Positions 44,457 through 56,118 of a stretch of DNA of 64,000 nt are shown piece after piece. This stretch comes from Nitrosomonas sp. Nm34. Its GTDB lineage: Bacteria > Pseudomonadota > Gammaproteobacteria > Burkholderiales > Nitrosomonadaceae. Under the pieces are notes generated by a model that searched no databases, was not told the origin of the DNA, and was given only the letters and a program-made list of their open reading frames with translations. The position numbers and the translations under genes are program-made. The stretch covers positions 1-64,000 of the forward strand of contig NZ_FORD01000011.1 of assembly GCF_900113925.1 (NCBI RefSeq), written 5' to 3'. The first letter of the stretch is position 1; every line of letters starts with the position of its first letter.

Positions 44457-45935
44457 ATGGTATCGAGACGCAACTTCCTTAAAATTTCTGCAGCCTGCCT
44501 GGCCATCCCAGCGGTATTTGGAATGAGCAATACATTATGGGCGCAGCCAACCCACTTGCGGGTTCGAAAAAACTTGATGACCCTTGCAGACAATGATCCA
44601 TTCTTTGAAAAATATGGCGAAGCGGTAAAGGCCATGCACGCATTGCCTGATACCGACCTGCGTAGCTGGTGGGGTCAGGCAACCATTCATGCAGACTATT
44701 GCCAGCATGGTACCCTTAACTTTGTATCGTGGCACCGCCCATATATAGCGATGTTTGAGGAAATCTGCGGAGAACTGATTGGCGACAGCAATTTTACACT
44801 GCATTACTGGGATTGGAGCAAGAAGAATGGGATTATTCCCAACCCCTTTTACGACAACCCTCTACTTAATGTCACACACTGGAATGATCCGGGGGAATAT
44901 AATGGGATTAACTGGGGACGAATCGACAGTCTTCCAATAAGGGCTCTGCAAAAGGGTACAGGATTGCAAAGTGATCCAGTACGTAGTGGTAGCTTTACGG
45001 AAAGAAACTTGCAGACCATTTTGCGTCAATCTTCATTTGTAAACTTCAACAACATGCTGGAAAGGCAGCCACACAACAATGGGCATGTCATTGCTGGTTT
45101 CCCGGCAAGAGGGTTGCCCGGGCATATTGGTGATGGCTTATCTCCACTCGACCCAATTTTCTGGATGCACCACTGCATGGTGGACTACATGTGGGCAAAA
45201 TGGCAAGCTGCAGGTAACACTACTCAGGACAACGACGAAACTTACAGCGACATGTTTGTAGACAAGGACGGTAATCCCATCACCTTTACTTCCCAGCAAG
45301 TGCGAGACTTTACCAAACTGGGGTATACCTATGACGACTTGATTGGCAAAGAGCGTTTTGAAGCGATGTTGAAAAACGCCGAAATTTCGAGTGCCTTTCA
45401 AGCGACGCTAGCAGAACAGCTAAAAAGCGCGAAATCTATGTCCTTAGGAACGAAAAAAGCAAGCATCACCGCAAGTGTTGGCGAAGAAACCAGTCTTTCG
45501 GCTAAAACCACGAATTTGCTCAGAAACCTCCAGAGCAGCCGCGTGTTTCGCACTACCCTTGCGGGCGAGAAGCTCCTGGCCACGGAAGGTGCGCGCGTTA
45601 TAGCTGTTCTAAAAAATGTCGGCTGGCCGCAAGGCGGGAATAACGGTCTGGTAGTGAATGTTTTTGTGAATTGCCCTTATCTGACTCCAGAAACGCCTTC
45701 AACCGATCCCCATTATGCTGGAAGTTTCGGTTTTTTTGGCTCTGCAAAGACGACAAGCATGGAGCATGGCACCAGTGTGATGGTAGACATTACTGCGCCG
45801 TTGACGGCACAGGCTGGAGCAGGCAGGCTGAACGATGATATCAAGGTGCAACTGATGCCAGTTAATGCAGCCGCTGAAAGTAAGAATACTGCTTCCTTTA
45901 CTGTTACAGATTTAGAAATTATACGGCTTGATTGA
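44457..45935 (+). CDS. Tat-exported tyrosinase-type copper oxidase
   Basis: This 492-residue type-3 copper protein has a twin-arginine signal (SRRNFLKISAACLAIPAVFG, cleavage after LWA). The CuA site has H78, H84 and H93 in IHADYCQHG and VSWHRPY with the Hx8H spacing of tyrosinases. The CuB site is PHNNGHV (Hx3H) and DPIFWMHHCMVDYMW. After the catalytic core (about residue 290) comes a C-terminal region of about 200 residues that may shield the site or form a beta domain. Expected activity is oxidation of phenols or aminophenols outside the cytoplasm, with copper loaded before Tat export. A small exported protein gene follows on the same strand. Confidence 0.9.
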   Translation: MVSRRNFLKISAACLAIPAVFGMSNTLWAQPTHLRVRKNLMTLADNDPFFEKYGEAVKAMHALPDTDLRSWWGQATIHADYCQHGTLNFVSWHRPYIAMFEEICGELIGDSNFTLHYWDWSKKNGIIPNPFYDNPLLNVTHWNDPGEYNGINWGRIDSLPIRALQKGTGLQSDPVRSGSFTERNLQTILRQSSFVNFNNMLERQPHNNGHVIAGFPARGLPGHIGDGLSPLDPIFWMHHCMVDYMWAKWQAAGNTTQDNDETYSDMFVDKDGNPITFTSQQVRDFTKLGYTYDDLIGKERFEAMLKNAEISSAFQATLAEQLKSAKSMSLGTKKASITASVGEETSLSAKTTNLLRNLQSSRVFRTTLAGEKLLATEGARVIAVLKNVGWPQGGNNGLVVNVFVNCPYLTPETPSTDPHYAGSFGFFGSAKTTSMEHGTSVMVDITAPLTAQAGAGRLNDDIKVQLMPVNAAAESKNTASFTVTDLEIIRLD

Positions 45936-46029: not shown

Positions 46030-46515
46030 ATGAGCATGAAACCATCGAGACGTGTTGCCATCGGGAGTCTGGTCGCAGTATTGCTGATGTTTTTATGTCA
46101 AAGGTGTTATGCGGATATGGTCGTAGACAAAGACCGCATCGTGCAGATGGCTCTGAAGGGGATGATCGAAGACAAAAAAACGTCTACTATCTTAGTTGTG
46201 CGCTATAAGGTGCTTGCTGCTCCCAAGCAAGAGCATAGCGTGATCCAAATCATATTTTCTCCCGTAAAACTCAACACGGACGATAGCATAATAATTCAGA
46301 AGCAGGAAGACTGGATGAACGAGAACACCCTTGGATGGATCACTCACTACCCTCCTGCCCGTCAGGGGCAAACGGGAGAGGTTCGTTTGTCCATTCCATT
46401 ACCCGTCCGTGAAACAGCAGAGCAGCATTTTGTGCTATTTCGGATGCTGCCGGTCCATCCTGAAGGAAAATTAGAAAAGAGCCGCCTCCAGATTATTTCT
46501 GTCCACCTGGAGTAA
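46030..46515 (+). CDS. Hypothetical exported protein downstream of tyrosinase
   Basis: This 161-residue protein has a signal peptide (VAIGSLVAVLLMFLCQRCYA) and a mature beta-rich region: MVVDKDRIVQMALKGMIEDK, TILVVRYKVLAAPKQEHSVI, and alternating strands to the end. No cofactor motif is seen; the only Cys residues lie in the signal. I do not recognise the family. It starts 95 bases after the tyrosinase stop on the same strand, so cotranscription is likely. By analogy with other tyrosinase pairs it could help copper loading or act as a partner, but it lacks the His/Cys/Met clusters expected of a copper chaperone. Confidence 0.6.
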   Translation: MSMKPSRRVAIGSLVAVLLMFLCQRCYADMVVDKDRIVQMALKGMIEDKKTSTILVVRYKVLAAPKQEHSVIQIIFSPVKLNTDDSIIIQKQEDWMNENTLGWITHYPPARQGQTGEVRLSIPLPVRETAEQHFVLFRMLPVHPEGKLEKSRLQIISVHLE

Positions 46516-46721: not shown

Positions 46722-47117
46722 CTATCCGTAACCGGTACCTACATCTTGACCTTCTTTGGGCATTGAAAACCCACCGAACATATAAATTTTACCTTCTACG
46801 GAAGTCAACGCCATATGATGCAATTTGACGGGCATGTCATTTTTACGTGTCCATTTATCGGTTTTCGGATCATATTCCATCACCATACCAAGCGGCTCCC
46901 AATTGAGCCCTAATCCACCGAACATGTAAAATTTATCTTTAGTGGAAACGCCTATCACCTCCTCAGCTCCGAGAGGTGCAGATGCCGCTGTTCTCCATTC
47001 ATAAGATTGTGCTGGAATATTATCTTGAGCACTTAACTCATTACTCAACAAAAACATCAATAAAGCTCCTACAGCATGCTTGGATAGGTTCATACTGATT
47101 CCCCGCGAAGTGGTCAT
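46722..47117 (-). pseudogene. Kelch-repeat protein, truncated
   Basis: This 131-residue fragment has a signal-like N-terminus (VGALLMFLLSNELSAQD) and two kelch blades: VIGVSTKDKFYMFGGLGLNW with VMEYDPKTDKWTRKNDM, and LTSVEGKIYMFGGFSMP. Kelch propellers need 4-7 blades, so at least half of the gene is missing. It is caught between two IS982 end remnants (46518-46585 and 47170-47350), which probably explains the loss. Some family members are periplasmic galactose-oxidase-like propellers. Confidence 0.7.
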
Positions 47118-47369: not shown

Positions 47370-48617
47370 CTAATCGTAGCCACCACACATGAATAGAGAA
47401 ATATCTTCATCCGTAGCATTAATCAGAGCATGGAGATTGCCACCTTTCAACATAGCAAAATGTCCCGATCTTAAAGTACGGATTTCAAAACATCGCTCTC
47501 GTTGGGGCATCTTTAACCAATCTCCGATTACCATAAACCCTTGGCCTTCCATCATCAAAAACATTTCCTGATTATCTCGATGGCGGTGCAGACCAATGCC
47601 ACACCTTGCTTTTAAGAGATGTAAATCCATGTAATCGACAGTAAAGAATGGCTCAAAGTTGTTGTTATGATTTTTGGTACCAAACGCATTGAAGTTCCAG
47701 GAATTTAACTGACGTCCTAATTCATTTCGGCCTGAATAATAGCCATAATTAGACATCAAATTCCGGTATTCCAAAAAGCCAACTCCTCCATGAGGGTTAG
47801 GGCTGATCCCAGCTCCCAGGAAATTGTCCCAACCTCGCAAAATCATGTTAAATTCATAGTGGTAGTTAGCTCCGTTTTGTGAGTCCCACTTTTGTTCGTA
47901 AAAATCTGCCCAAGCTAGCTCTATATGTAGTGGTAAGATTGGGTGCATGGAATTGCTGGGTGCAACATTTATCATGTAGAGATCATTCAATTTTTCCCGG
48001 TTAAAGTCATGCATATTTCCTTGCACGAGAGCGTTTTGGACGATCAATTCTCCTCGTTGTAGTGCTTCTAATCCTTTAGTATCCAGCAGTGTGGTTAGAT
48101 CGCTACCAGGATAACCCCAAAATTCAACTTCATAACGATCGCTGCGTGGATTGTATGGCACTAGGACAATGATAGGCCCTACGTTAGCAACTTTAATCCA
48201 GAGTTTGATTTTTTCACCTAATTGATTATTGGTTGAAGCCGATAATTGAGAATCAGGTCCCCCGCGATAGGAAACACGCAGGAATGGACCTGTCCAGTTT
48301 CCAATAGTTACCAGGCCTCTGATGAGCACTGTGTCAGTGCTCACAAATTCTTTGACGTTCTGTTTCTGGAAGTCGGTCTTATTATCTTGCAGCGATGGGT
48401 CAAGGATACCTGCGTCCCCTCCTTGGGGACCATAGAAAGTGAGTGAGTGATAGGGGAACAGATACTGTAGATGTTCAGATAGATAAAATTCACGCTCTGC
48501 AGCCAGCTGCGATCGCTCCATTAAATTCATCAATTTCAGCAGCGGATTGCTTTGGTCATAATTGGGGGTTGTGCCGGATGGCACCTCAACAATAATATCC
48601 GAGTGAACAATAAACAT
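47370..48617 (-). CDS. Cupin-domain protein (second of paralogous pair)
   Basis: This 415-residue protein has no signal. The C-terminal 80 residues are a cupin: GIGLHRHRDNQEMFLMMEGQ, then HFAMLKGGNLHALINATDED, with HxHx4E and a later His as possible metal ligands. The N-terminal two thirds (DTVLIRGLVTIGNWTGPFLR, EKIKLWIKVANVGPIIVLV, SDRYEVEFWGYPG) look like the N-terminal domain of the preceding gene product, so the two are probably diverged paralogues. A central block (YHYEFNMILRGWDNFLGAGI) is unique to this one. It is the last gene in the GMC/cupin cluster, 17 bases after its neighbour. Function unknown. Confidence 0.65.
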   Translation of the reverse strand: MFIVHSDIIVEVPSGTTPNYDQSNPLLKLMNLMERSQLAAEREFYLSEHLQYLFPYHSLTFYGPQGGDAGILDPSLQDNKTDFQKQNVKEFVSTDTVLIRGLVTIGNWTGPFLRVSYRGGPDSQLSASTNNQLGEKIKLWIKVANVGPIIVLVPYNPRSDRYEVEFWGYPGSDLTTLLDTKGLEALQRGELIVQNALVQGNMHDFNREKLNDLYMINVAPSNSMHPILPLHIELAWADFYEQKWDSQNGANYHYEFNMILRGWDNFLGAGISPNPHGGVGFLEYRNLMSNYGYYSGRNELGRQLNSWNFNAFGTKNHNNNFEPFFTVDYMDLHLLKARCGIGLHRHRDNQEMFLMMEGQGFMVIGDWLKMPQRERCFEIRTLRSGHFAMLKGGNLHALINATDEDISLFMCGGYD

Positions 48618-48634
48618 AGAAAATATTTTCCCTT

Positions 48635-49777
48635 TTAGACCGTGTGGTATAGAAAAGCTACAAACTTGAGCGGTATAGTGCCATTATTGCGGATGCCGTG
48701 CATTCCTCCACTCTTCGTGTAGATGACACTACCTGGTTTAACAGGAAGTTCTTTGAAATCTCTGAAGCCCAAGCCCATCACCTGCCGCTCCACCGTGGGG
48801 AATGAATCAGTAGCCGGATCGTCCCCAACCCGTAGATAAGCTATCCCCTCACCTTCGGTGATGTAATACAGCTCTTCAGTGCCAATGTGCTGATGATTAC
48901 CTTCAACTTTACCGGGCGGTATGGTGACTTCGTGGAAAAATATCATTGACCCACCCAACTCACGCTGAACTACCCAACGCATCTCAATAATATTGTCATC
49001 GTGCAATTCCTGATTGTCAGAATCCATCATTGCATTTTGATAACGGACAGGTTGAATATCGGGTGTTTGTAAGTACCAGCCACGCTGGAAGTTGATGAGA
49101 TAATTCTGATCCAGGATAGTATTGTTGGGAGAACTCGGGCTAGATGTGCGAGGTTCCTGGTGAGATCTCAAATATCCGTTATCCCATACTGTATCATTGT
49201 CATTAATGGTGTACCCCGTGGGCAGATCGCGGTCATTTTCACGAAATGCTAGCTCTAGCTGCCTTAAAGACTTGATCTCCTGTAAAGCTGGATTAAAAGC
49301 TCGTACTCGTGTAATCGGGCAGTCTCGGCCCATCTGATCCAATACTTGGAAATCATGAAAAGAATTACCCGGTGGCTCTAATGTTTCCCAAATCTCTACT
49401 TGAAACGCATCTACCCAGGGGCAGTAGTGGAGTTTAACTCTCGACTCAGCCATTTTTGTCATATTGTCTGGCATGAGTTTGACCCAAGCAATGAGCTGAT
49501 CCCTAAGGAAGCGCCGCTTTTCACGGGCCTGCTCAACCAAGCGACTGGCTCTATATTCTATTCGCAGGAAGTTGCTGAGAAACTGGCTGTCTAAGTAGAC
49601 TTCTCCCTTAATAACATTGATATCGAAGTAACTGCGAACTTCCTGGACATTGTATCGGTAGCGATCACTACGAGTGGCATTTAAGTATTGGGCGTGATAA
49701 ATGCGATCAGGGAAAAAAACGACTTTAAATATTTCATTCCAGGGATTTGTCTGAATGGTATTAAAAGCGGGATCCAT
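48635..49777 (-). CDS. Cupin-domain protein (first of paralogous pair)
   Basis: A 380-residue cytoplasmic protein. The N-terminal domain reads RSYFDINVIKGEVYLDSQFL, FLRIEYRAS, QLIAWVKLMPDN and DAFQVEIWETLEPPG, corresponding in order to segments of the next gene product. The C-terminus is a cupin: VEGNHQHIGTEELYYITEGE and KPGSVIYTKSGGMHGIRNNG, with HxHx5E and a distal His that can form a 3-His/1-Glu metal site. It starts 5 bases from the GMC oxidoreductase stop, so it is in the same operon. Possible roles are an isomerase, a dioxygenase or a sugar-binding partner of the oxidase. Confidence 0.65.
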   Translation of the reverse strand: MDPAFNTIQTNPWNEIFKVVFFPDRIYHAQYLNATRSDRYRYNVQEVRSYFDINVIKGEVYLDSQFLSNFLRIEYRASRLVEQAREKRRFLRDQLIAWVKLMPDNMTKMAESRVKLHYCPWVDAFQVEIWETLEPPGNSFHDFQVLDQMGRDCPITRVRAFNPALQEIKSLRQLELAFRENDRDLPTGYTINDNDTVWDNGYLRSHQEPRTSSPSSPNNTILDQNYLINFQRGWYLQTPDIQPVRYQNAMMDSDNQELHDDNIIEMRWVVQRELGGSMIFFHEVTIPPGKVEGNHQHIGTEELYYITEGEGIAYLRVGDDPATDSFPTVERQVMGLGFRDFKELPVKPGSVIYTKSGGMHGIRNNGTIPLKFVAFLYHTV

Positions 49778-49782
49778 AGTTT

Positions 49783-51624
49783 TTACAACCTCTTAAGCAA
49801 TTCGTCAGCAACACGAAAGGAATTAGCCTGAATCGTTAAGGTTGGGTTCGCGCCACCTGAGGTAGGCATAAATGAGCCATCCGTAACGTATAGATTGTCA
49901 AAATTCCAGGCACGGCAATGAATATCCAAGACCGAATCACGGGGGTCAGTCCCGAATCGTGCTCCACCTAGAATATGGTTGGCAATGCGTGCCAGGGCGT
50001 TCTCAGCATTGAAAATACCACCCTGACCTTCAAACAGAAATTGAAATTCTCCGGTATTATTTTCTCCACCATATTTGAGAATCTTTCCACACATCCCGGC
50101 CAAAGTATCCATCAAATACTGATCATGTCTGTGCCATGTTTTGATGATATAAGCTACCGGTCGGTTCCACTTATCTGAAATGGTTGGATGCAGCTCAATT
50201 CGGTTGTTTCTTTGAGGCACCTGGTTAGCCATAAAACTTACAGATAGCCCTCTCCCTATGTTTTCATCCAAGAAATCTGCTAAACCTTGGCCTGCCAAAC
50301 GAGTATCGTCAATAAAGCCTTTCCAGAGCGTATCAAGATCCTGACTTCCATGATTACGTCCTATGGAAAGAGGCAAAGCCTGGTCAGATGTATTGTTATA
50401 AATGGCACCTCCAGCCCATAAACCATTGTTTTTCAAAAAATCTTCTGTGGCACAGCAATCTGTCGCCCAGTCGGCGTCTAAGGCCATTGACTTGTCATTC
50501 CGGGTCGGCATGAGAGCGCTGGCGCCTCCAAAACAATGGGTTAAAAAATATCTTCCCAACAGGTCATTTTGGTTGATGCGTTGATCAAATTCGCTATTGA
50601 ACCTTGCAGATAGCTTTAGCAATCGAATCGATTCAATTGCAGAACAAGCTACCACCACCAGGTTACCTTCGACAGATAGTTGCCTCCCTGATGGATCCCG
50701 ATACATCACACGATTTATCCTGGCACCGTCACATTCTAGATGGGTGACAATACAGTTTGCACGAATCTCAAAATTCGGTTGGTCGGAGATTGGACTCAAA
50801 AGAGCTACCCAAGTATTCGATTTAGCACCAAGGGGACAGCCGTAGCGATTAACGTAGCTGGTTTTTAAGGTTTCTGGATCGGTAGGAACTTTTCGCCCAC
50901 TTGGTGGGTGATCGCGAGTGATCACTGCCAGAGGAGTACGGTAAGGTAATATTGGATCGATAGGGTTAAGCTCTCGCCCTAACTGCTCCATTCCAGCTTT
51001 GGCGTAACGACTTATAGGGTTCGGTTCCAGGGGAGGCTGGTAGTTGTCCTTACTAAAGCGTTTAAGCTGATTATCAACCGTTCCGTTGAAACCAATTAAT
51101 TCTTCAGCCTGGGTATAATAGGGCTCAAGTTCATCGTAGCTAATTGGCCAGTCCCTTGCTTCCCGCTGTACATCCCCATCAGGATCATTTTTGAGATCAG
51201 TGCGACCCGCATTGAAGCTTTGCAATTGAAAATCAGTGGGAGTAAAACGCAAAGATACTCCCCCATATAGCTGGGTGCCACCCCCTACAACTTGAGCGGT
51301 ATAGCCTTCAATTGTAGCGCGATCTTGTCCGTCTGCCCCACGGTAGACATGGGGCTCATCATTAATATCTGGCTCTACGTGACTGGAGTAAAAACCTTCT
51401 CCATAGTTAGCTACTCCAGGGACCTGGACTCGCTTTTCCGTTCCATCGGAGATTAACTCATCGCGTTTAAAGTCACTCAATCCATTCGTATTTTGATATT
51501 GCGGCTTAAATAACGGGCCTTTTTCTAAAATCAGAACTGATTTGCCTGCTTTGACCAATGTGTAGGCTATCGGTGCTCCTCCCGCTCCACTACCAATAAT
51601 TATTACATCAAATCTGGTTTGCAT
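49783..51624 (-). CDS. GMC-family FAD-dependent oxidoreductase
   Basis: This 613-residue flavoprotein of the glucose-methanol-choline type has the Rossmann motif FDVIIIGSGAGGAPIAYTL with LILEKGP, VGGGTQLYGGVSLRF and the C-terminal LGGARFGTDPRDSVLDIHCR, LYVTDGSFMPTSGGANPTLT. The Asn in NPTLT and an upstream His in the last block are where the catalytic pair of GMC enzymes lies. No signal peptide is present. The next gene upstream is a subunit-3-like protein, as in membrane gluconate or sugar dehydrogenases, but no cytochrome c subunit is encoded here. Expected reaction: oxidation of a sugar or sugar acid hydroxyl; electron acceptor unknown. Confidence 0.88.
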   Translation of the reverse strand: MQTRFDVIIIGSGAGGAPIAYTLVKAGKSVLILEKGPLFKPQYQNTNGLSDFKRDELISDGTEKRVQVPGVANYGEGFYSSHVEPDINDEPHVYRGADGQDRATIEGYTAQVVGGGTQLYGGVSLRFTPTDFQLQSFNAGRTDLKNDPDGDVQREARDWPISYDELEPYYTQAEELIGFNGTVDNQLKRFSKDNYQPPLEPNPISRYAKAGMEQLGRELNPIDPILPYRTPLAVITRDHPPSGRKVPTDPETLKTSYVNRYGCPLGAKSNTWVALLSPISDQPNFEIRANCIVTHLECDGARINRVMYRDPSGRQLSVEGNLVVVACSAIESIRLLKLSARFNSEFDQRINQNDLLGRYFLTHCFGGASALMPTRNDKSMALDADWATDCCATEDFLKNNGLWAGGAIYNNTSDQALPLSIGRNHGSQDLDTLWKGFIDDTRLAGQGLADFLDENIGRGLSVSFMANQVPQRNNRIELHPTISDKWNRPVAYIIKTWHRHDQYLMDTLAGMCGKILKYGGENNTGEFQFLFEGQGGIFNAENALARIANHILGGARFGTDPRDSVLDIHCRAWNFDNLYVTDGSFMPTSGGANPTLTIQANSFRVADELLKRL

Positions 51625-51674
51625 AATAACTCCTACTCACAAATGCCGGACTGTTCAAACCGTGGTAGTCATTT

Positions 51675-52751
51675 TTAGCCGTGATAGTCCTTATTGATCC
51701 CTAACGGGGATTCAATTGCACGTTGCCAGTTGAATAAAGTGGTTTTTGTCGCTGTGTCAAAATACCGTTCCGCAAGGTATGCCCATCCTGCTGCTCCAAT
51801 ATTTCCACCATATTTAGGATGGGAAAAAGCGCCTGTAAAGGTGTGGCGTCGTAAAAGCTCCCAAAAGTAGCGTGGTCTACCATACTTACTGTAATCCCAA
51901 CCTGGAACAGTATTTGCCGCCATCTCGTTATAGAGCTGGGCATACATTTCTACTGATATGTCCTGCGGGTCGATAAAAGGATTCCGTTGCCTCAACACTT
52001 GATTAATTTCGCTAATGCAGATTTTGTAATCAATCAAATGATGGTTTTCTTCTCGTGCCAGAATACAGTCAATATAATTGGTTGCGCCCACTGATTCATC
52101 AAGACGGTAAGCAGATGGGAAAAGAGCAGCTTTGTCTTGCTTATCAAGAATATTATAGTAGCGATCGATGAAATTCTGTCCTTCTCGAGTACGAAATGGC
52201 AAGATGTGGGCCACAAGCCGCTGCAAGATAGCATATTCCCAATCTTCAAAACTGAGGGGCTGAGTACAGAATTGGGTGAAAAATCGTGACCAGGTCTTAT
52301 TGTTATCGAGAGTAACTCGCTGTGGGTTAATCGGATCTATAATATATTGATTATTAACCAAGTACTTATAGAAATGGACTTCAGCTTTCGGTACAATGAC
52401 GGTCAAGGCAAAATACCCAGTATTTTCCCCTAAAAACTGAATAGGTCGAAGGGGAATGGGTTCATAAAGTGTGGCAAAAGTGCCAATTACGCCAACGCTT
52501 ATAGGAGAAACAACACCCCGATTCTGATAGACAAAAGTTACTTGGTTAACTGCATAATTAGATTTAGAACTTGTCCCATCGCTATAAGTAGCGATGAGAG
52601 GAAATCGCCATGATTCAGCGATGCTAGCCCTGGTGTCATCACTGCCAAATTGTCCAAAATTATGTCGTGGATCTGTATTATCCCTCGCTAAATATTTAGT
52701 ACAATGGTTCAATACATACTCAGGATCAGGGTCCAGAACTTGAACTGCCAT
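51675..52751 (-). CDS. Gluconate-dehydrogenase-subunit-3-like protein with CBM48/AMPK-beta-like domain
   Basis: This 358-residue protein appears to be a fusion. Residues about 69-160 follow the pattern of glycogen-binding E-set domains: NQVTFVYQ, SVGVIGTFATLYEPIPL, GYFALTVIVP, VHFYKYLVNNQYIIDPINP and a closing Asn-rich turn, where W/Y-K-F and DPxNP are hallmarks of CBM48/AMPK-beta folds. The C-terminal half (DWEYAILQRLVAHILPFRTR to FTGAFSHPKYGGNIGAAGW) resembles subunit 3 of gluconate 2-dehydrogenase, which partners GMC flavoproteins. It lacks the usual Tat signal. It lies 50 bases before the GMC gene and 360 bases after a GH13 glucan enzyme gene. I infer that it tethers the oxidase to glucan or oligosaccharide. 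Confidence 0.65.
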   Translation of the reverse strand: MAVQVLDPDPEYVLNHCTKYLARDNTDPRHNFGQFGSDDTRASIAESWRFPLIATYSDGTSSKSNYAVNQVTFVYQNRGVVSPISVGVIGTFATLYEPIPLRPIQFLGENTGYFALTVIVPKAEVHFYKYLVNNQYIIDPINPQRVTLDNNKTWSRFFTQFCTQPLSFEDWEYAILQRLVAHILPFRTREGQNFIDRYYNILDKQDKAALFPSAYRLDESVGATNYIDCILAREENHHLIDYKICISEINQVLRQRNPFIDPQDISVEMYAQLYNEMAANTVPGWDYSKYGRPRYFWELLRRHTFTGAFSHPKYGGNIGAAGWAYLAERYFDTATKTTLFNWQRAIESPLGINKDYHG

Positions 52752-53112: not shown

Positions 53113-55023
53113 CTATCTCGCAAAAACTAAGAGGCTATTTGCTGGTAGCACGAGCGATGCGGAAAAATTGAACTCGTGCAGCGGCTGCGTATCCGCCCAC
53201 ACCTGACCACCATTACCGGCAACTTGAGGATTTACCCAATGATCGTATACGTCACTGTTGAAGACCTCGCGCCAATTTCCGCCTCCGGGAAAACCAATAC
53301 GATAGCCAAAGCGATGAGCGTTGCCTAGATGAACGACTACGAGCACATCGTGGCCTTCGCCCTCCACCCACCGGTGAAAGATCAATATTCGATTTTGATC
53401 ATGCGTATGCACTATGCGGAATCCCTGCCCTTTTAGACCTGGGCGGCTATTGCGCAGATGGATCAACTCCCTTGTGAAGCGGAGATGGTCAATCATGTCC
53501 CTGTCTCCTTGCTCAAGTCCGGCCCAGTATAACAGCAAGTTATGGTCATTAACGAAATCGTCGGACCACTGCTTATCTTCGAGGAACTCCTGTCCCATGA
53601 AGAGCATGGGGATACCAGGTGCAGTCAGGCTCAACCCAGTAGCGACCCGCGCACGACTTCGGGCAAACCATGAACGCGCGTTCGAAGGATCACCTAAATT
53701 GCTGATGCGTAGTTCCCGTCCCTTATAAACCATATCATGGTTCTCTGGCCCTTGTACAAAATGCCAGTGTTCGTAAAACCCGTCTGGCCAGAGGTTACGC
53801 GCAAGCACCGTCATATCGAGTGGTCGCTCGTCTGGCACGCTTGCATTTGCTATGACATTACGAATAGCGATCCGAAATCCGTCTGTCAGAGTCGTATCAA
53901 ACCCCGCACCTTCTGGTAGTCTCTTCACGATGTAGGGGTTGACATTCCAATACTCGGCGAGATCCATGGCACTTGGGTTGTTTGCAAGGAGCGTTGTCGT
54001 GAGATCCTGGCAAAAACTCCAGCCATATGGCGCCCCGTCATGATCGATTACCTCAACACGATCATAGCGAAAGCCATCCACACGATATTCGTTCAGGAAG
54101 AATTTGGCATTCTGAATAAGGAAATCGCGTACTTCCGGCTTGGCAAAGTCGAAAACAAGCCCGCCCGCGTGGCCCTTATCCGTAAAATAGAGCGAATTAC
54201 GGTTCCCGTCGGTAGTCGCTTGTCGATCAAAGAAATATATACTCTCATCACCGAAACTTCCGCCGGCATGGTTATAGACTACGTCAAGCAGTACGGCCAC
54301 CCCGTACAGATGGCAGATATCCACAAGCGCTTTCAGTTGATTCATTTCGCCATATAACTCGGCCACTTCATATTTCTGCTGGCCCTTCGACTCCAATAGC
54401 TCATTCACCTTGGCGACGTAAGATGTCAAATCTGCATCTGCCACAGCGTAATCCATTTCAGGAGAGTAATAGTCAGTTCCGTTGTATCCAAGACTAAACT
54501 GCGTCTGAAACTCTTGGATAGGCATAAGTTGTAGCGCAGTGATGCCCAACTCAGTCAAATAGGGGATTTTGAGCGCGACGTCAAGAAATGTGCCGGCTTT
54601 GTTTGGAAGGTTCGGAGTGAAGAACGTCCCTACATGAAGTTGATAAATCACAAACTCATGAAAAAGCGGCGTGACGAAGCCGAGTTCGTGCCAAGGAAAA
54701 TCCGGTTTTCGGATAATGCATTTGCTGGGGAAGGGTGTTTCTAACTCGCGCGCGTAAGGGTCACGTTTGGGCCCCTCACTCCCGTCACCAACTATATAAA
54801 ACAAGTACCGCTGCCTATCACGCACACCTGGAATAAAACCGAGCCAATGACCGTGGTTGTCGCGCGTAAGTAAACCGGTATCGGTACGTAGATGCCCGTT
54901 GAAATCACCCACAACATGAACGGAATGGGCATATGGTGCCCACACACGAAATGTAGCACCATCAGCGATGAGGTTTGCTCCCATTGGTGTCCCGGAGTGA
55001 GTGTGCTCAAGCGATGCCGGCAT
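53113..55023 (-). CDS. GH13 alpha-glucan enzyme (branching/trehalohydrolase-like)
   Basis: A 636-residue alpha-amylase-superfamily enzyme. An N-terminal E-set domain (GATFRVWAPYAHSVHVVGDF) precedes the TIM barrel: VYNHAGGSF (region I), VDGFRYDRVEVI with the nucleophile Asp (region II), MDLAEYWNVNP with the acid/base Glu (region III) and VQGPENHDMVY with the stabilising Asp (region IV). GIPMLFMGQEFLEDKQW and a C-terminal beta domain follow. The E-set plus barrel layout fits branching enzymes and malto-oligosyltrehalose trehalohydrolases; I cannot pick between them. It is transcribed in the same direction as the oxidase cluster 360 bases downstream, suggesting linked glucan metabolism. Confidence 0.82.
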   Translation of the reverse strand: MPASLEHTHSGTPMGANLIADGATFRVWAPYAHSVHVVGDFNGHLRTDTGLLTRDNHGHWLGFIPGVRDRQRYLFYIVGDGSEGPKRDPYARELETPFPSKCIIRKPDFPWHELGFVTPLFHEFVIYQLHVGTFFTPNLPNKAGTFLDVALKIPYLTELGITALQLMPIQEFQTQFSLGYNGTDYYSPEMDYAVADADLTSYVAKVNELLESKGQQKYEVAELYGEMNQLKALVDICHLYGVAVLLDVVYNHAGGSFGDESIYFFDRQATTDGNRNSLYFTDKGHAGGLVFDFAKPEVRDFLIQNAKFFLNEYRVDGFRYDRVEVIDHDGAPYGWSFCQDLTTTLLANNPSAMDLAEYWNVNPYIVKRLPEGAGFDTTLTDGFRIAIRNVIANASVPDERPLDMTVLARNLWPDGFYEHWHFVQGPENHDMVYKGRELRISNLGDPSNARSWFARSRARVATGLSLTAPGIPMLFMGQEFLEDKQWSDDFVNDHNLLLYWAGLEQGDRDMIDHLRFTRELIHLRNSRPGLKGQGFRIVHTHDQNRILIFHRWVEGEGHDVLVVVHLGNAHRFGYRIGFPGGGNWREVFNSDVYDHWVNPQVAGNGGQVWADTQPLHEFNFSASLVLPANSLLVFAR

Positions 55024-55767: not shown

Positions 55768-56118
55768 ATGTATAAATCAACTTTAACATTGGTAGGAACA
55801 ATAATGCTAACTGGTACATTGATATTCACCAGCATAGTATTTTCTCAGAATGCTTCGAATGACCAGATGCCTGCTGGTAGTACTAATACTCCTGGTACTT
55901 CTGATAACCCTGATAGCCTTGGTACTCCGAGTACCTCTAATAATTCTGATACATCTAATATTCCCGATACCTCTGGTAGTTCTGTTAGCCCTAGTACTCC
56001 GGGAAGCTCTGTTACTCCTTATATCCCGGATAGCTCAGTTACACCTTATACCCCGGGAAGCTCCGTAACTCCTTATACCCCAGATAGCTCTGTTAATCCT
56101 GGTAACCAGGGTAAGTAA
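55768..56118 (+). CDS. Exported Ser/Thr/Pro-rich repeat protein
   Basis: A 116-residue precursor with a signal peptide (LVGTIMLTGTLIFTSIVFSQ, AAGGAGA ribosome site) and a mature part almost entirely of Ser, Thr, Pro, Asn, Asp and Gly. The end is a tandem repeat of the unit SSVTPYTPG/SSVTPYTPD (about four copies, the last degenerate, SSVNPG). No Cys, His or membrane segment is present. It is probably disordered, perhaps a cell-surface or matrix polypeptide. Copy number of the unit could vary by slippage, as the DNA repeats are near-identical. No family recognised. Confidence 0.6.
   Translation: MYKSTLTLVGTIMLTGTLIFTSIVFSQNASNDQMPAGSTNTPGTSDNPDSLGTPSTSNNSDTSNIPDTSGSSVSPSTPGSSVTPYIPDSSVTPYTPGSSVTPYTPDSSVNPGNQGK

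Follow-up and report, generated by a model that had tools for sequence, protein, structure and literature searches.

What do four closely packed genes on a contig of Nitrosomonas sp. Nm34 (NZ_FORD01000011.1) do together? They lie in a 64,000-nucleotide stretch of DNA, positions 1 to 64,000 of the contig, which was analysed whole and is called the window here. The genes encode a fusion of a CBM48-like domain with a gluconate-2-dehydrogenase-subunit-3-like domain, a GMC flavoprotein and two cupins, and a GH13 enzyme gene stands upstream as a fifth member. We find the four genes, hereafter the cassette, as a fixed unit in seven bacterial phyla. They may form a cytoplasmic, alpha-glucan-linked pathway of sugar oxidation and keto-sugar rearrangement, a reading that we hold with evenly balanced confidence and for which we infer substrate, acceptor and product. 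The five genes, in the direction of reading, are:

53113..55023, minus strand: GH13 enzyme with CBM48, 636 amino acids, catalytic triad intact; the upstream fifth member.
51675..52751, minus strand: fusion protein, 358 amino acids, first cassette gene (open reading frame (ORF), Pfam, AlphaFold, Foldseek and family alignment); its N-terminal segment leads into a CBM48/AMPK-beta-like E-set domain (about residues 68-158), and a helical domain resembling gluconate 2-dehydrogenase subunit 3 spans about residues 170-330.
49783..51624, minus strand: GMC flavoprotein, 613 amino acids (Pfam, PDB profile match and residue alignment).
48635..49777, minus strand: cupin B, 380 amino acids; an N-terminal domain akin to the one in cupin A and a C-terminal metal-type cupin.
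47370..48617, minus strand: cupin A, 415 amino acids; an N-terminal beta-rich domain and a C-terminal metal-type cupin.

All four cassette ORFs are open, start with ATG and share one strand, with gaps of 50 nucleotides from fusion to GMC, 5 from GMC to cupin B and 17 from cupin B to cupin A; the GH13 gene, also on this strand, precedes the fusion gene by 361 nucleotides. A preliminary description of this DNA had reported four closely packed genes, as the ORF check of the window confirms, and had expected their order to recur in other genomes, as it does. A profile built from 25 fusion proteins retrieved 47 loci from public genome contigs, spanning Cyanobacteriota, Pseudomonadota, Actinomycetota, Acidobacteriota, Verrucomicrobiota, Planctomycetota and Bacillota (one record carried no assignment). 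The fusion gene is followed by the GMC gene on the same strand in 47/47 loci, with cupin B in 46 and cupin A in 45, the missing cupins coinciding with contig ends (L041 for cupin B; L017 and L041 for cupin A). The order fusion-GMC-cupin B-cupin A on one strand is kept to the contig limits; cupin B is split in L004, and short and diverged in L024. The four-gene unit exceeds chance.

As a reverse check on this fusion-based retrieval, cupin A was searched for in 24 of the 47 cassette genomes and in 398 genomes of the phylum. It was full length, single copy and at the cassette coordinates in 24/24 cassette genomes, with three extra partial matches within ~2 kb of the cassette, and was present in 1/398 phylum genomes, that of Nm34, the three other matches there being short cupin matches. 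The same genome holds the sole full fusion match in the phylum sample and the only fusion protein among 61 relatives (37 of the genus, its own included); the closest fusion relative among the matches listed has 97% identity and is labelled Nitrosomonas communis. Widespread as the cassette is (900 database matches for the fusion protein and 948 for cupin A at an E value of 0.001), the names of its relatives among the best 120 of each are generic: hypothetical protein, gluconate 2-dehydrogenase subunit 3 family, cupin domain-containing or mannose-6-phosphate-isomerase-like protein. No description of the cassette was found in the open-access literature searched. On the cassette tree the window groups inside cyanobacterial cassettes, and the best reading is of a mobile, horizontally moving cassette scattered over distant bacterial groups. 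A five-gene cassette is also borne by the Microvirga plasmid pMVF16-5 (L043 / L049), among mostly hypothetical genes and with an IS630 transposase ~12 kb downstream of cupin A.

Bacterial sugar oxidation by GMC and subunit-3 proteins is known as an exported, cytochrome-linked process, and the flavoprotein of the cassette resembles the enzymes that carry it out. Both its N and C domains score above the Pfam cut-offs, and its His550 and Asn593 pair is invariant (48/48, counting here and below the window and the 47 loci). By profile comparison it is nearest, among solved structures, to the large subunits of FAD glucose and fructose dehydrogenases, its strongest PDB matches being Burkholderia cepacia FAD-dependent glucose dehydrogenase (GDH; 6a2u/8hdd, E 4e-44) and fructose dehydrogenase (7w2j, 1e-32), with pyranose oxidases at 1.5e-18. 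Like glucose, fructose and gluconate 2-dehydrogenases, it has a partner of the subunit-3 family encoded next to it. The cassette differs from that type in having no Fe–S (iron–sulphur) cysteine set, no Tat signal on the small subunit and no cytochrome gene in view, and in adding a CBM48-like domain, two cupins and often a GH13 gene. The small subunit of GDH is described as a Tat hitch-hiker, with a 3Fe-4S cluster as the first acceptor from FAD (PMC9727119). Across the alignment of 48 GMC sequences this cysteine set is absent: where the Cys-rich segment of GDH aligns, 33 have no Cys and 15 have one.

Membership of the pyranose oxidase family was considered for the GMC protein and is not supported: pyranose_ox (TIGR02462) is its top NCBIfam family at 56.8 bits against a cut-off of 544.9, and the PDB profile match is weaker than that to GDH. 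Pyranose oxidases (AA3_4; PDB 9fl2, 8qve) and glycoside 3-oxidases share the GMC fold and the His/Asn pair, whereas the cassette enzyme stands with a subunit-3 partner and cupins, its loci having been retrieved through that partner.

The cassette proteins had been described as lacking export signals and a cytochrome subunit, and a simple scan for signals (RR motif; mean hydropathy of 18 residues within the first 50; no dedicated predictor) together with a CxxCH scan found none. Rows were trimmed to the start of the window protein and then rechecked with the upstream part restored. None of the 48 trimmed fusion proteins and no cupin was flagged, and restoring the upstream part added one RR string only, in the L046 fusion, without a hydrophobic stretch. 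The GMC rows flagged were those of the window, L011 and L013 (hydropathy 1.63-1.68) and, for an RR string, L027, each flag falling within the FAD-binding start. Nine GMC proteins carry a single hydrophobic stretch inside the chain, around residue 315. No frame of at least 80 amino acids with CxxCH occurs in the window at 42-58 kb, and in the 4/47 loci where some such frame lies within 4 kb outside the cassette, none is cytochrome-like by eye. Since no Fe–S ligand set, signal or cytochrome gene was seen, the GMC protein does not fit a standard member of the GDH type. Eight of the 47 loci (L004, L007, L016, L018, L019, L027, L028 and L046) have an ORF cluster in common; its members from L007 and L046 were tested, and both adjoin the fusion gene and resemble zinc-type dehydrogenases/quinone reductases.

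What the enzyme acts on is suggested by the neighbouring GH13 genes. Within the flanks fetched (reaching as far as 10 kb before the fusion gene and ~5.8 kb past cupin A), GH13 is found at 29/47 loci (two of them fragments) against 0.98 loci expected, a figure derived from PF00128 matches per genome that is an upper bound, fragments being counted separately; the loci are not independent, hence the Poisson tail is no probability. The 29 loci represent about 22 genera or lineages in six phyla, and 23 of the 34 loci whose flanks reach 2 kb or more on each side have GH13. The gene is downstream in 23 loci (17 with a gap of -40 to 93 nucleotides, one of 282, five whose start was not read) and upstream in 6, at 104-1766 nucleotides, one of them divergent. 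The catalytic Asp, Glu and Asp are intact in all 28 proteins of more than 400 amino acids (the window and 27 of the 29 loci; fragments L013 and L022 excluded).

Three groups can be told apart among these enzymes: window-like (14 loci, two fragments), GlgB/TreZ-like (7 loci, at about 32-34% identity) and GlgX-like (8 loci; of four tested, three score above the curated GlgX cut-off and one just under). The neighbouring enzymes are related to GlgB, TreZ or GlgX, whereas the window enzyme is far under the cut-offs of every family listed (25 of 39 matched), reaching 213 of 741 bits for GlgB (NF003811) and 190 of 539 for TreZ. On the cassette tree, made by a quick method and with L024 and L047 on long branches, the four GH13 states ('none' included) need 13 changes against a shuffled mean of 21.7, so the states are partly inherited; the GlgX state needs two changes, each forced by well-supported branches. 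Because the three groups swap repeatedly on this tree, the association with alpha-glucan enzymes looks functional. The GH13 of the window is closest to that of Accumulibacter (70-72%) and its cassette is cyanobacterial-like; the GH13 slot was therefore refilled. GC content is ~0.50 over the GH13 gene and 0.42-0.45 over the cassette, which fits a separate origin. Window-like GH13 occurs in 9/24 cassette genomes, one copy each and at the cassette (the broken L013 copy went unmatched); against exclusivity, 2/398 phylum genomes have a window-like GH13 (50-51%), and the ~1.5 kb fetched to either side of it holds no cassette.

The oxidised compound could instead be another cytoplasmic sugar or alcohol, such as trehalose, a glycoside or a secondary-metabolite sugar, with GH13 as precursor supplier or mere neighbour. 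Three observations count against an alpha-glucan substrate and for this alternative: 18/47 loci have no GH13 in their flanks, GH13 is the only listed neighbour with a sugar annotation on the Microvirga plasmid, and GMC enzymes are highly varied in their substrates. However, three GH13 groups have been recruited, and other genes of glucan metabolism stand near cassettes that are without an intact one. At the GH13-less Nostoc locus L002 a GT4 gene adjoins the cassette and a GH57 gene lies ~9 kb upstream, and the Methylomonas locus L013 has a GlgC-like gene ~1.6 kb downstream of cupin A on the other strand. We consider a non-glucan substrate unlikely, if worth keeping in view. At that Methylomonas lenta locus (L013:15351-18213) the cassette-side GH13 is broken into short ORFs and the four cassette genes are open.

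The CBM48-like domain of the fusion protein would seem to offer a second link to alpha-glucan. Pfam places Gluconate_2-dh3 above cut-off (E 7.6e-6, residues 214-324) and AMPK1_CBM under it (E 0.015, residues 85-145), the latter being precomputed in Pfam for many fusion relatives. The AlphaFold model has a mean predicted local distance difference test score (pLDDT) of 75, and of about 85-92 within residues 71-160. Residues 68-158 match AMPK-beta glycogen-binding domains in Foldseek and VIA-align, which identifies them as a CBM48/AMPK-beta E-set fold (root-mean-square deviation 1.2-1.6 Å to AMPK-beta chains over 81-83 residues). VIA ranks the CBM48 domains of feruloyl esterases highest; the fold therefore does not imply alpha-glucan binding. 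Although the fold is that of the AMPK-beta glycogen-binding domain, its glucan-stacking tryptophans are not conserved: Leu stands at the Trp100 position in 48/48 fusion proteins, and the Trp133 position holds Trp in 7/48 and any of Trp, Tyr or Phe in 18/48. Mutation of both tryptophans is reported to abolish the cyclodextrin effect on AMPK, and mutation of their equivalents to abolish starch binding by PTST (PMC9788615, PMC4339375).

It is thus improbable that the domain serves to fasten the oxidase to glycogen or maltodextrin, with glucan chain ends oxidised in place. The fold itself and the GH13 association speak for a tether, and a basic residue at the Lys126 position (45/48), an aromatic at neighbouring residue 96 (29/48) and Trp154 (48/48) could form another surface; the loss of the stacking tryptophans disfavours a classical glucan anchor, and the closeness to feruloyl esterase domains points the same way. 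Judged from these residues, the domain most likely serves assembly or protein contact. Of the preliminary description, then, the gene unit, the CBM48 fold predicted for residues 69-160, the lack of export signals and cytochrome, and the association with an alpha-glucan enzyme all stand, and its proposal of a small subunit that anchors the enzyme on the glucan is not supported.

Both cupins appear equipped for metal chemistry. Cupin_2 scores above the Pfam cut-off in cupin B and under it in cupin A, whose structure model has a mean pLDDT of 90.8. The ligands are His295, His297, Glu301/302 and His360 in cupin B and His344, His346, Glu351 and His396 in cupin A; the HxH...E...H site is kept in 44/44 cupin B sequences (L004, L017 and L024 excluded as short) and in 44/45 of cupin A (L020 excluded; the sole miss, L044, is a contig cut).

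In the proposed alpha-glucan pathway, the GH13 enzyme would trim, debranch or hydrolyse glycogen or maltodextrin, as gene association suggests. The GMC protein and the subunit-3-like half of the fusion would then, by homology, oxidise a hydroxyl of the freed sugar or chain end to a keto-sugar or lactone. Electrons would bypass the Fe–S/cytochrome path of exported relatives, because the cysteines, signal and cytochrome genes were not found, and might pass to O2 or a soluble acceptor. Finally, the two related metallo-cupins could isomerise, epimerise or dehydrate the oxidised sugar, as their preserved metal sites and the reactions known for the fold suggest. A redox-neutral scheme, in which the sugar is oxidised by the GMC protein, altered by a cupin (through epimerisation, isomerisation or elimination) and then reduced again by the GMC flavin or a second enzyme with no external acceptor, would suit the two cupins per cassette and the want of an acceptor gene or Fe–S ligand set, but is very unlikely, there being no recurrent reductase (the zinc-type dehydrogenase cluster, two members tested, is at 8/47 loci and a cluster that is SDR-like by eye at 5/47); nor did a GMC precedent for it come up, although none was looked for.

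The alpha-glucan pathway has a parallel in fungi, where the cupin domains of aldos-2-ulose dehydratase act on 2-keto sugars and 1,5-anhydrofructose. Pyranose oxidase with this dehydratase is alike in idea, in that a cupin-type enzyme converts the keto-sugar made by a GMC sugar oxidase; aldos-2-ulose dehydratase is not among the cupin matches listed. More tentatively, and with somewhat less than even confidence, we suggest a phylum-crossing intracellular pathway, not described before, from stored alpha-glucan to an oxidised, rearranged rare sugar, in which an exported-type GMC dehydrogenase would have been re-tooled for the cytoplasm with an E-set small subunit without Tat, no Fe–S relay and two product-processing metallo-cupins. 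If true, this would be a new mode of storage-glucan handling, a cytoplasmic version of GMC/subunit-3 oxidation tied to glycogen enzymes, and a source of enzymes for keto-sugars. Its function is testable with four or five clonable, apparently soluble proteins.

Other genes surround the cassette in the window. Just past its 3' end, on the opposite strand, positions 44457-45935 (plus strand) encode a protein that combines a Tat-like N-terminus with a tyrosinase domain (Pfam Tyrosinase, E 6.7e-31); the ORF after it, of 161 amino acids at 46030-46515, has no Pfam match at E 1. A 131-amino-acid ORF at 46722-47117 (minus strand) has a signal-like start and Kelch motifs in its C-terminal part only, and resembles the truncated start of a Kelch beta-propeller protein. 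Beyond the GH13 gene, a short ORF at 55768-56118 (plus strand) has a signal-like start and a Ser/Thr/Pro repeat tail.

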